Shown here piece after piece: positions 3,537 through 35,750 of a stretch of DNA of 36,577 nucleotides (positions within the stretch are counted from its first letter, which is position 1; every line of letters begins with the position of its first letter). The notes under the pieces are model-generated. The model worked only from the letters and a program-made list of their open reading frames with translations. It was not told the origin of the DNA and made no database searches. Origin of the DNA: a virus; the IMG/VR virus record IMGVR_UViG_3300037189_018064, positions 1 to 36,577 of that record; one strand, written 5' to 3'. Made by a program: the position numbers and the translations under genes.

Positions 3537-6500
3537 ATGGCATCTCGAATTAAAATCAGAAAAGATACCGCAGCTCAATGGACGGCTATTAATCCTGTCT
3601 TAGCAAACGGAGAGATGGGTATAGAGTTAGGCAATCCACCGAGAGCGAAAATTGGTAATGGTGTTCTTACTTGGAATCTATTAGGATACATTGAAGGCCC
3701 AACTGGACTTACTGGACTTACTGGAGTTGTAGGAGAACGAGGAGCCACAGGTGCGCAAGGAGCCGCTGGAATCAACGGTACACCTGGAACTCATGGGACT
3801 AACGCAACTTATATCTTAGCAGGAAATCAGCCGCCAACTGCATCAGTCGGTAAAACGGGAGATTTCTTTGTCGATAGGGTTAGCAAAGTTCTTTGGGGTC
3901 CTAAGCAAGTGGGTGGGTGGCCAGCCTCTGGTAAGAGTATAGCCCCATCTACTACCCCGGTAGGTAATGCGAACATCAATACAGGTACCGGAGCACCCAT
4001 TGGCGCTGATGGATCTCCGTGGCCGTCTCCATGGATCACTACAGAAACAAGCTCCAGTGGAATTCAGGATTGGAACTCTGGAAAGCTCAGATTAGTTTCA
4101 CCTTCCGCGGGAGGAGAGTCCTCCTCTGCCTACGCTAACTTGACAAAATCAAATATCTTTATCAAGTACAATTTTTCCCTTTCGTCGGTTGTTGACGCAA
4201 ATGCCCAGTTCTTGTTTAGGGCTTCGTCAAACTTAAACGTAGGATTTGCACTTAATTATAATCCAGCGACTAGCACAATTGATTTTATTCAAAAGTCTAA
4301 CTCAATTGAAACAGTCCTATTCACTAGTGCTTTTAACTTCGTAGCGGATCAATCTATTACCACTGATATATATCTAATCGGTAATAGAATGCTAGCCAAA
4401 ACATACCCATCTGGTCAAGTGCAACCCACTGTGCTTACTTTTGACTTTGATGTTTCTTCGGCTTTATATAACGATCAAACAAGAGTAGCATTTAAAATCA
4501 CTGGTAACGCTAAGACGATGTATCTATCGTCTTTCATATCCAGCGAAGTTCCAGTTGGAATAGAGCCGACACCAACCATTACTCTTTCTCAGAATTTCAA
4601 TAGCGTGACATCGGCAGCAGCTGCGGGTTTTGTGGCAACTGCTGGATCTTTTGCTATTGCATCACAGGGACTAAGAAGTAATGTAGCCAGTAACTCTATT
4701 GGTTACTACAGCTACGATTTAAGCTCAAATAATACTTTTGTTCAGGCCAAGTTTATATTTGGGACAAGTGGAACAAACGTCACTGCGGGACTAAACGGAC
4801 GAGTAAGCTCTAACAAAAATAGCTACTATAGATTCACTACATCTGCTGGACTGGGAACGGTTAAACTTTCCTATGTATCTAATGGGGTAGTCACCGATAT
4901 TGATTCGTATGTAGCCAACATTCAACCGAATACAGAGCATGTGTTCAGATTGGAATGTCAGAACACATCTATAAGATGTTATATAAATAACCAAATTGTT
5001 ATTTCTTACAACGAAGCTACTCCAGGTACGACTATTAATCCATTTACTGGTATAACAATTAATCCAGGAGCGTTTACTTCTAACGTCACAATAGATGACT
5101 ATCTTATCGGTACGTTGAGTGGCACAGTAGTTGAGGGAAACAGTACGCTGTTCACGCAAGATTTCAATGCGGTGTTTACACCTAATCCAACAAATGATAA
5201 CAAACTTCCATCACGCATTATGGGTGGATACTACGAAACTGGCCCTGTATTTCCGAACAACGTTCCACCGACGGAGATGGACGACGCTTATAACGTTTTC
5301 TTCTGCGCCTTTGCTACTATCGGCGCAGATGGAACAGCCACGTTCAGTATAGCTGGCAACACCATACCTAAACCACAGCTAATCGCTTATTTTGCTCAGG
5401 TACGTGCAGAAGGTAGACCAGTTATCGTTTCCATTGGCGGTTGGGCTGGTGCCTTATCGGGCCTTTCTTCATTGGCGCATCAAAATCAATTCTTCAATAC
5501 CATCACACCGATCATTGATGAATACGGTTTTGACGGTTTAGACTGGGACTTGGAGCACGTAGACGGTAGTGCATCTGACATACCAGATGGCATCTCCGTA
5601 ACTGGATTAGCTTCCGTATCGCGCAGGCTTAAGGCCAAGTACGGAAGTAGATTCCTGATCACCATGGCTCCTGCTGTGATGAACGTAACTGAGTATCAAC
5701 AGTTAGCAGCAAACCTGCACGCAACTGGTGAACTTGATCTTGTTATGTTCCAGTTCTACAACATGAGTTACGTAGCAACGCCAGCGCAAATTGTTACAAT
5801 AATTGGTGAGTGGATTGCAGCCATTGGTAATGGATTCACGGCTAACAAATTCATTATGGGTATGATGTATACGGTTGGAAACTTCGACAGTATCAACTAC
5901 TCCCAGATGGTTGCCTGGTTCAATGCCGTAAGGATCGAGTATCCAACCATTCGTGGAGTTATGCTCTGGAGCCTTCAGGATGGAGATCTCGAACGCAACT
6001 GGGAATTTGCTAATACTTTCAGACCACTAGTGAATCCCGATCTTGGTAGCGGTATTGGCAACGGTGTCGGAGTTTCAACTGGACAATTCCATGTAAACCC
6101 TGAAGGTTCTATAGTTGATCCCAATGGACGTTTTTTCATTCCCACTGGTGGATGTACAGTCAGCCAACCAACTGGATTGAACGTAAACGATTCCGTTTGG
6201 GGCACTACAAGCGGTGCTCATAGCTATGCCAATGGAAATGCTTGGAGAGCAAAAGCTGCTGGCTGGAACTGCACCGAAATAACAGTACCGATCCCGACAG
6301 CTATCAACGGGACAACTGCTAATATTTTCACAGAAAACTTTGATGGTCGTGGGCAGACCATATCTAATGGAACCTTTGTTACTAGCACTAACTCGTTCGC
6401 TCGTATCGATCAGAACATTCCGCCTACCGGGTACGTCGACTGGAACGGCAACTATTACACGGGCCTCAACCAAGACGGCATGCCCCGGTTCTCCACCGTC

Positions 6501-34417: not shown

Positions 34418-34420
34418 AGA

Positions 34421-34492
34421 GATCCCAGTGGTATTCGAAACCACCTTGACCTGGAGTTAGAGTCCAGCGCATTACCACTATGCTATGGGATC
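34421..34492 (-). tRNA. tRNA with CUA anticodon (amber suppressor type)
   Basis: The 72-nt sequence folds into a full cloverleaf. The acceptor is GATCCCA with TGGGATC (7 perfect pairs), the D stem GCAT/ATGC with loop AGTGGTA, and the anticodon stem CTGGA/TCCAG with loop CTCTAAC. The T stem is GTGGT/ACCAC with the canonical loop TTCGAAT. U8, A14, GG18-19, U33 and A37 are as expected. With U33 fixed, the anticodon is CTA, which reads UAG. The variable loop is 6 nt, slightly long; CCA is not encoded and the discriminator would be U. The anticodon arm resembles some Gln tRNAs with G36 changed to A, but U73 and the short D loop also recall Gly tRNAs, so the charged amino acid is undetermined. Confidence 0.85.
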
Positions 34493-34649: not shown

Positions 34650-34973
34650 TTACAGGCTCAGACCAGTGTCTTCACCCAACTCGGTAGCATACTTATCCAT
34701 CACCAAGTGATAGAGATCGTGGCTACGCTGTGAATCTTCCATCGCCATCTCACGAAGAATGAGACGCTGAACACGCACGCGGCGGTTCAAAGCTGTCAGA
34801 GCCTTGGACTGTGAAGCGATCTTGGATTGCAGGCGTGAGCCTACATACCATTCACTCTTCGTGGTCAGAGCTTCGATCTCAAGCTTAGCATCAGCGAGCT
34901 GACGACGCAGCTCAGCGACACGCTGTTGAAGAATCTCTGTCTCAGACAGAACCTTAAGTCCAGTATCAGTCAT
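34650..34973 (-). CDS. Coiled-coil protein of unknown function (107 aa)
   Basis: ATG 34973 has GGGAGG about 9 nt upstream; a GTG at 34982 is too close to that site. It overlaps the end of the PTH2-like gene by 8 nt (ATGACTGA). Residues 12-45 form a coiled coil (ETEILQQRVAELRRQLADAKLEIEALTTK), and the rest is helical and basic (ALNRRVRVQRLILREMAME). No catalytic motif is seen. It may be a structural or regulatory protein. Confidence 0.72.
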   Translation of the reverse strand: MTDTGLKVLSETEILQQRVAELRRQLADAKLEIEALTTKSEWYVGSRLQSKIASQSKALTALNRRVRVQRLILREMAMEDSQRSHDLYHLVMDKYATELGEDTGLSL

Positions 34974-35286
34974 TGTTTTCACCTCCCTTCGAAAAAATTA
35001 AAGGGAGTGAACTGATCCACTTAGGATGACGGCCAGGCTTGATAGCTATGGCTGTATGTTCGTCATCAAGATCTGGTTCGCAAAAGTAAATTGCATCCTC
35101 AAGTCGATCAAGAAGATCAAGAATTGAATCCTCATCCTTGCCACCATCTAAAGCAATAAGGTAATGGTTCTCGGAGAGATTCCATTTACGCTGCGCTTCG
35201 ATAGCAACATGACAAGCTTGGGCAACAACCAGACCTGGTTTCAGATCAGATCTAACAATGATATAGAGGCGGTCCTATACGTTCAA
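34966..35286 (-). CDS. Peptidyl-tRNA hydrolase 2-like protein with in-frame amber codon 4
   Basis: On the minus strand the frame after TAG (35275-35277) runs 102 sense codons to TGA (34966-34968). It begins DRLYIIVRSDLKPG, then VVAQACHVAIEAQRKW, and later EPDLDDEHTAIAIKPG. This resembles the PTH2 fold (first strand, VRTDL/AAQ-H motif, late TAIA strand) seen in phage proteins. No ATG, GTG or TTG follows the TAG before the conserved core. The only standard start is TTG 35286, with AAAGAAG 7 nt upstream, giving M-N-V-amber-D-R-L-Y. Expression therefore seems to need amber reading or an unusual start. PTH2 releases peptides from peptidyl-tRNA. It overlaps the 34650 gene by 8 nt. Sequencing error or a strain mutation remains possible. 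Confidence 0.68.
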
Positions 35287-35300
35287 AGTATTACTTCTTT

Positions 35301-35750
35301 CTATGTATCGATATCAGAGATATCTTTGTTTTCGGTTTTCGCCGGTGGAATCCACGGCTCTTCACGCTTGATGTATTGTACCATACCGTTGTTCATACGA
35401 ATAGTAAAGTGTTCGCTATCTTTATATCCAGTATCGGGATGAGCAAAGATTGCATTTATATCAAGATGAGAATCTTCGACAGCAACATCAGTGTATTCAC
35501 CAGTGCGTGTCATGATAGGAATGAAGTTTCTGAAGATGCTATCTGGTTCATACTTATTGCGATACTCATCTTTTTCTTCTTCAGTGAGTTCACGGTATTC
35601 GTACTGACGCTCGAATAACAAACCATCTTCAGTGATGAAGTAGTATGACATGGCACATTCCAAAGACTTGGTCTGACCATCTTGTCCGCGGAAGTGTTCG
35701 TATCCTTCAGGAAAAGGATAGTCTACTTCAATGTAATCAAACATACCCAT
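35301..35750 (-). CDS. Conserved phage protein starting MGMFDYIEVDYP (149 aa)
   Basis: ATG 35750 is 2 nt after the stop of the upstream gene; a second ATG lies two codons on and no strong ribosome site is seen. The opening GMFDYIEVDYPFP and the QTKSLEC block match a family of unknown function found in many phages and proteobacteria. The middle is acidic and charged (YRELTEEEKDEYRNKYEP). Its stop is TAG (35301-35303); amber reading would add KEVIL after the suppressed residue, then TGA, so no fusion results. The PTH2-like gene follows after 14 nt. Confidence 0.78.
   Translation of the reverse strand: MGMFDYIEVDYPFPEGYEHFRGQDGQTKSLECAMSYYFITEDGLLFERQYEYRELTEEEKDEYRNKYEPDSIFRNFIPIMTRTGEYTDVAVEDSHLDINAIFAHPDTGYKDSEHFTIRMNNGMVQYIKREEPWIPPAKTENKDISDIDT

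Follow-up and report, generated by a model that had tools for sequence, protein, structure and literature searches.

Release factor 2 (prfB) autoregulates by an early in-frame stop codon, UGA, and +1 frameshifting, with no dedicated tRNA. In an engineered coherent feed-forward loop, the "leak dampener" (PMC7969014), one input drives both an amber-containing gene and a suppressor tRNA, and the protein needs both. In code-15 phages (crAss-like and Lak phages; PMC8346664, PMC9523058), UAG is decoded as an amino acid by a CUA tRNA that the phage itself encodes. The authors of the XacN1 study sought targets for phage CUA tRNAs, and none could be identified (PMC5852040). Here, we describe a PTH2-like gene interrupted by an early in-frame TAG and accompanied by a tRNA-CUA gene on the same strand of IMG/VR virus record IMGVR_UViG_3300037189_018064. 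The whole stretch of 36,577 bases that was analysed is called the window; its remaining genes use the standard code. In our judgement, this arrangement is quite likely best explained as a PTH2-like gene with an amber gate that is opened by a suppressor tRNA linked to it.

Amber-interrupted PTH2-like gene and its neighbouring tRNA-CUA

The elements of the putative gate in the window are as follows.

34966..35286, minus strand: PTH2-like gene with a TTG start, an in-frame TAG as codon 4, 102 further codons and a TGA stop
35275..35277, minus strand: the in-frame amber codon (codon 4), followed by G, a purine at +4
35294..35300, minus strand: Shine-Dalgarno-like AAAGAAG, ending 7 nt 5' of the TTG (direct reading)
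34419..34492, minus strand: tRNA with anticodon CUA (34460-34458), loop CUCUAAC, discriminator U and no encoded CCA; presumed amber suppressor (ARAGORN, Rfam)

Read from 35286 to 34966, the minus strand runs TTG AAC GTA TAG GAC CGC CTC TAT ... AAC AAT GAC TGA, and none of the 102 codons separating TAG from TGA is ATG, GTG or TTG. An earlier reading made from the letters alone (the sequence-only reading) had described this frame, the lack of a normal start after the TAG, a purine-rich ribosome site fitting the TTG, and a CUA tRNA about 780 nt downstream in the same direction. Direct reading confirmed the frame and placed the gene on the minus strand, AAAGAAG (35300-35294) was found at a 7-nt spacing, and the tRNA, on the same strand, was found to begin 474 nt past the PTH2 stop; counted from the TTG the distance is 794 nt, which fits the earlier figure of about 780 nt.

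The window tRNA was called by ARAGORN, scored 58.5 bits with the Rfam tRNA model and folds as a canonical cloverleaf with a CUA anticodon, as expected of an amber suppressor tRNA. Among 80 tRNAs linked to the PTH2-like genes, the commonest loop is CTCTAAA and the variable arm is always short. Their discriminator base is not constant (A 39, G 19, T 18, C 4), and therefore no single inserted amino acid is predictable. Pyrrolysine tRNA identity was rejected for the window tRNA, as its anticodon stem has 5 bp (6 in tRNA-Pyl) and two bases join the acceptor to the D stem (one in tRNA-Pyl); the ARAGORN label "tRNA-Pyl" is derived from the anticodon only. In one relative (L066, 6780-7150), first scored as lacking the tRNA, the CUA tRNA carries a 280-nt intron in its anticodon loop; suppressors of this kind are overlooked by intron-blind searches.

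Conservation of the early TAG

Relatives were collected by two IMG/VR profile scans on internal motifs in which the N-terminus was not used, giving 160 loci; removal of duplicates and close copies left 118 non-redundant phage relatives. The first in-frame stop 5' of the body was counted when a start codon stood no more than six codons before it. Whether related phages carry TAG or a sense codon at this place had been raised by the sequence-only reading; the first upstream in-frame stop is TAG in 91 of the 118 homologues, TAA in 2 and TGA in none. A stricter test on the first loci gave 31 TAG, 0 TAA and 0 TGA for PTH2, against 10 TAG, 11 TAA and 6 TGA for all other open reading frames (ORFs), and four of those ten TAG cases are themselves derived from PTH2. 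The TAG stands at codons 2-5 of the gated genes (codon 8 in two), behind ATG or GTG in relatives versus TTG in the window.

A purine after UAG favours amber suppression. Of the 91 TAG genes, 89 have a purine at +4, versus 58% expected from first-position composition (p = 3e-19). The PTH2 bodies have a median ratio of nonsynonymous to synonymous substitutions (dN/dS) of 0.13, indicating purifying selection; the decayed gene in relatives that would have spoken against the sequence-only reading was thus not seen. In pairs with dS near 1, the TAG is retained and the adjacent codons are altered. As judged by this comparison, the TAG is conserved, and decay or a local oddity is excluded as its source.

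That the window TAG alone is a sequencing error or a recent mutation in a decaying gene is an extremely improbable account. It could appeal to the single contig, to the one-base change that turns TAG into the start codon TTG, and to the divergence and shortened middle of the window PTH2. However, cultured phages and dozens of independent assemblies share this TAG, a matching CUA tRNA lies on the same strand of the window, and the structural model described below is confident over the whole body. No relatives of the window phage were found in IMG/VR by single-protein scans with PTH2, the upstream gene, the metallophosphoesterase or DnaE, nor by blastn among phage records.

The nearest annotated relatives are the mycobacteriophages Myrna and ScoobyDoobyDoo and metagenomic huge phages. 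GTG-TAG-GTG occurs upstream of the annotated start in Myrna, ScoobyDoobyDoo and Phabba, ATG-TAG-GTG occurs in IkeLoa, Grungle, Cane17 and record L142, and the sequence is ATG-AAG-TAG-ATT in LR756500 and ATG-TCG-TAG-ATT in LR756501; each has a CUA tRNA nearby. The sampled C1/C2 mycobacteriophages, like the related L108, have TTGACA and TAnnnT boxes that end 6-7 nt before [A/G]TG-TAG. From this spacing, transcription should begin at the start codon, producing a leaderless message that opens AUG-UAG or GUG-UAG. A leaderless start just 5' of the TAG is therefore probable; the GTG annotated as the start would in that case sit at +7, behind the TAG and lacking a ribosome site. As a separate observation, one relative (L086, about 3975-4000) reads ATG-AAG-CGG-ATC-TAA-C with the PTH2 body in another frame, possibly a frameshift gate or an assembly error.

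Linkage of tRNA-CUA to the amber codon

A CUA tRNA lies within about 4 kb of 77 of the 91 TAG genes and of 3 of the 27 TAG-less genes (Fisher p = 3e-12, uncorrected for kinship). In the full unthinned set, all CUA tRNAs share the PTH2 strand (118/118). In the thinned set, 69 lie downstream and 23 upstream of PTH2, and the nearest is less than 2 kb away in 68 of 77 genes. The amber gene and the suppressor tRNA are thus linked co-directionally, as a natural feed-forward loop requires. The state without the gate is illustrated by L099, whose protein begins DRLYIVVRSDLKPGL versus DRLYIIVRSDLKPGL in the window; its ATG falls exactly at the position of the window's TAG, and no CUA tRNA was detected in the entire 125-kb record. 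The proposal of the sequence-only reading that the gene is switched on by the phage's own CUA tRNA is strongly supported by comparison: very diverse phages repeat the early TAG (codons 2-5), the nearby co-directional tRNA, the purine at +4 and the scarcity of the tRNA beside TAG-less homologues.

Another account makes the start codon and TAG a separate minigene or upstream ORF that regulates by drop-off and reinitiation, with PTH2 translation reinitiating at a near-cognate codon after the stop and the CUA tRNA being incidental. The codon after the TAG is ATT in 58 of 116 loci and GTG or ATG in mycobacteriophages, and Pth is known to be connected with two-codon minigenes and with early drop-off of peptidyl-tRNA (PMC10192219, PMC12487901). 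However, reinitiation does not need the same frame, and the start-TAG-body frame is unbroken in 91 of 118 homologues, versus one third under free reinitiation. The codon after the TAG also varies (GTA, GTT, ACA, GGC and CTT; GAC in the window) and provides no constant start, and neither the same-strand CUA tRNA nor the choice of TAG (91, versus 2 TAA and 0 TGA) is explained. We regard this account as improbable.

Standard genetic code outside the proposed gate

TAG could instead be a sense codon throughout these phage genomes (code 15), with PTH2 as one of many TAG-containing genes. CUA suppressor tRNAs are a hallmark of code-15 phages such as Lak (PMC8346664), and a second TAG occurs in the PTH2 body of a few members (LR756501, L058 and L059). 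However, long ORFs ending in TAG number 73 of 666 in the TAG loci, 45 of 168 in IkeLoa and 3 of 30 in the window, and coding coverage is almost unchanged when TAG is read as sense. Genome-wide recoding was therefore rejected, since TAG is still an ordinary stop. Moreover, the TAG lies at codons 2-5 rather than scattered along the gene, and Lak-B7, of a recoded lineage (PMC8346664), has no TAG at the PTH2 start. A recoded genome is thus a very improbable source of the pattern.

Lak phages universally carry a UUA tRNA; the Lak-B7 PTH2 was examined for a TAA gate, and none was seen. Candidates for further amber-gated genes in IkeLoa and in the window were no commoner than TAA or TGA look-alikes. 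The XacN1 protein ORF295 was also considered; it is a canonical PTH2 without a TAG and hence gives no explanation of the XacN1 CUA tRNAs.

Protein fold and altered active site

The window protein scores below the gathering cut-off of 23 with the Pfam PTH2 profile (PF01981; 19.7 bits, E 0.001), which is matched by 41 of 47 relatives (best E 9e-13). The phrog_1866 profile matches the window protein at E 2e-8 and 46 of the 47 members of set A4. An AlphaFold2 model built from the 47 relatives has a mean predicted local distance difference test (pLDDT) score of 92.4 and is confident across the whole body. Its six best PDB chains, 1q7s, 3erj, 1rlk, 1wn2, 2zv3 and 1xty, are all PTH2 proteins (Z 10.7-11.6). 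The model thus clearly indicates a PTH2 fold, and the PTH2-like assignment of the sequence-only reading holds by fold and by phrog_1866 profile. The window PTH2 is a divergent family member with a shortened middle.

As to the PTH2-like motifs noted in that reading, R, D, Q and H were found to be kept and the catalytic Lys to be replaced. R12, D14, Q23, H26, E70, P71, D72 and T78 are invariant, four of them (R, D, Q and H) belonging to the PTH2 motif. The catalytic Lys of the PTH2 G-K motif is Leu in the window and mostly Leu or Tyr in the 47 relatives, and the D-x-G-x-T loop of canonical PTH2 is an invariant E-P-D in the phage family. Only five matches were found in a scan of 84,980 cellular species genomes, and the family is nearly restricted to phages; two of the five have ATG-(AAA)-TAG together with a CUA tRNA 118-172 nt upstream. 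The family is thus a phage branch of the PTH2 fold, which may recycle peptidyl-tRNA.

The gate may also operate as described while the protein binds or processes something other than peptidyl-tRNA, for example the suppressor tRNA or another abnormal tRNA. The replacement of the G-K Lys by Leu or Tyr, while the eight residues listed above stay invariant, is in keeping with such a role, and TAG-less relatives adjoin tRNA-like genes with odd anticodon loops, as if the family accompanied irregular tRNAs. The clear PTH2 fold and the retained R, D, Q and H of the motif speak against this, and we regard the non-hydrolase role as possible but rather unlikely.

Proposed mechanism

In the proposed amber gate, ribosomes would initiate on the TTG, or on ATG or GTG in relatives, and reach the UAG one to a few codons later. 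When charged tRNA-CUA is missing, release factor 1 (RF1) would terminate translation, leaving a very short peptide or a dropped-off peptidyl-tRNA. Once tRNA-CUA has accumulated and is charged, some ribosomes would insert an amino acid at the UAG, and the full PTH2-like protein would be made. The gene and the tRNA would thus form a coherent feed-forward loop (an AND gate) in which the protein is off until the suppressor works and its level is tied to the strength of suppression against RF1. The favoured purpose would be a supply of peptidyl-tRNA-clearing activity scaled to suppressor use, since both suppression and early drop-off generate peptidyl-tRNAs in need of removal. With the UAG among the first codons, the choice would fall in the region where drop-off of peptidyl-tRNA is commonest and Pth is needed (PMC10192219). 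The analysis shows the codon pattern, linkage, conservation, fold, purifying selection and standard code; read-through, the inserted residue, the enzymatic activity and this purpose are inferred.

Several points weigh against the proposed gate. For 14 of the 91 TAG genes, a search to about 4 kb gave no CUA tRNA, although L066, with its intron-bearing tRNA, is among them; for six others, ARAGORN detected no CUA tRNA over whole records of uncertain completeness. Conversely, a CUA tRNA without a TAG occurs in three non-redundant loci and in the metagenome-assembled genome (MAG) contigs L218 and L219. The TAG state requires at least eight changes on the tree, in which branch support is weak. Since the tree is poorly resolved, TAG-tRNA co-evolution can be counted in only three independent pairs on supported branches, too few for significance. 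In addition, the absence of the canonical PTH2 lysine makes hydrolase activity uncertain. We lean slightly towards a wider view, in which phages of many hosts would share a self-contained, natural feed-forward loop built on a suppressor tRNA; this device would gauge charged suppressor against RF1 and provide peptidyl-tRNA-clearing activity to match.

Neighbouring genes and associated tRNAs

Two further ORFs adjoin the PTH2-like gene in the window.

34650..34982, minus strand: small ORF in the interval between PTH2 and the tRNA, without a family match
35301..35750, minus strand: upstream gene, phrog_1615, whose own stop is TAG

The PTH2 gene, the small ORF and tRNA-CUA probably constitute one operon. 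Read-through of the upstream TAG would add six residues (X-KEVIL), and the following TGA overlaps the PTH2 TTG as TTGA (35283-35303, minus strand), an overlap that could couple the two genes. On the 3' side of the tRNA, an ORF ends in a TAG that is in frame with the ATG of a metallophosphoesterase 12 nt further on (34088-34075, minus strand), where suppression would fuse both proteins.

In some relatives, homing endonucleases beside PTH2 (NUMOD3/HNH; DUF723/PvuRts1I-like) start with a captured PTH2 5' end that includes the amber codon (MT*INHKLIIITRRDLHPGYQAV...), and with this captured end the endonucleases seem to be amber-gated too. The ORFs concerned are as follows.

L010, 1930-2691: endonuclease ORF with captured PTH2 5' end
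L013, 1709-2452: endonuclease ORF with captured PTH2 5' end
L014, 3239-3982: endonuclease ORF with captured PTH2 5' end
L041, 3169-3969: endonuclease ORF with captured PTH2 5' end

The C1 phage IkeLoa encodes a 136-residue RF-1-domain (GGQ) protein, a transfer-messenger RNA (tmRNA), PTH2 and a CUA tRNA, which together make a ribosome-rescue set (L180 15420-15830; L179 46639-47073). In nine TAG-less relatives (L099, L115, L121, L122, L126, L150, L155, L164 and L166), PTH2 follows, at a distance of 0-220 nt, a tRNA-like gene that was called as tRNA-Ile(aat). These tRNA-like genes have an apparently enlarged, 9-nt anticodon loop, xxTAATGxx, and 8-nt loops occur in L133 and L162; some of the PTH2 frames behind them lack an ordinary start codon in the stretch from the tRNA to the body. 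The IkeLoa rescue genes and the odd-loop tRNAs suggest a broader tie of the PTH2-like family to irregular translation.

Other combinations were also observed. L100 (6541-6715) has two UCA-anticodon tRNAs and a PTH2 frame with TGA upstream, possibly an opal version of the gate. A UUA (ochre) tRNA lies close downstream of TAG-less PTH2 in L006 (3405-3481) and L132 (4411-4487), where no TAA gate was seen. L101 (2551-2905) has a tmRNA 1.1 kb upstream of an amber-gated PTH2, in a record without a detectable tRNA.

Significance and comparison with known systems

The amber-gated PTH2-like gene would represent a specific, widely conserved target for the CUA tRNAs of standard-code phages, adjoining the tRNA itself. 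If so, it would explain the retention of CUA tRNAs without a known target in such phages, and it could be a stepping stone for phage stop-codon reassignment, giving a concrete route by which reassignment of UAG begins. Here a stop codon would be kept by selection as a switch. In cultured mycobacteriophages, an annotated "tRNA-Pyl" and a PTH gene starting just past a stop reflect the same arrangement. A general annotation error is corrected as well, as gene callers omit or shorten amber-gated PTH2 genes. No description of an amber-gated phage PTH2 was found in the open-licence literature, which is weak evidence of absence; the amber gate with its linked suppressor tRNA is apparently a natural genetic switch without earlier description.

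The closest likeness is to the leak dampener (PMC7969014), of which the phage gate would be a natural counterpart. The leak dampener is synthetic, works in E. coli with supP on reporter and mutagenesis genes, and has ambers at leucine codons, whereas the phage gate is natural, has one amber at codon 2-5 and occurs in phages of many hosts. With code-15 phages (PMC8346664, PMC9523058), it shares the reading of UAG as an amino acid by a phage-encoded CUA tRNA, which is presumed for the PTH2 gate. In code-15 phages, however, TAG is sense throughout many genes, whereas in the gated phages TAG is a normal stop and one gene carries an early TAG. Canonical PTH2 (PF01981; Bit1, 1q7s; archaeal Pth2, 1rlk, 1xty and 2zv3) shares the fold (Z about 11) and the R-x-D-L ... 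Q-x-x-H-A motif, in contrast to the Leu or Tyr in place of Lys, the E-P-D in place of the D-x-G-x-T loop and the nearly phage-only distribution of the phage family. As in lambda bar-type minigenes and early drop-off (PMC10192219; PMC12487901), a start followed by an immediate stop would yield very short peptidyl-tRNAs, which are Pth substrates, but in the gated phages the hydrolase-like gene itself has this mini-ORF as its 5' end, in frame. Finally, the phage gate resembles prfB in that an early stop responsive to decoding conditions would control a translation-factor gene, and it differs from prfB in its unbroken frame and its linked tRNA.
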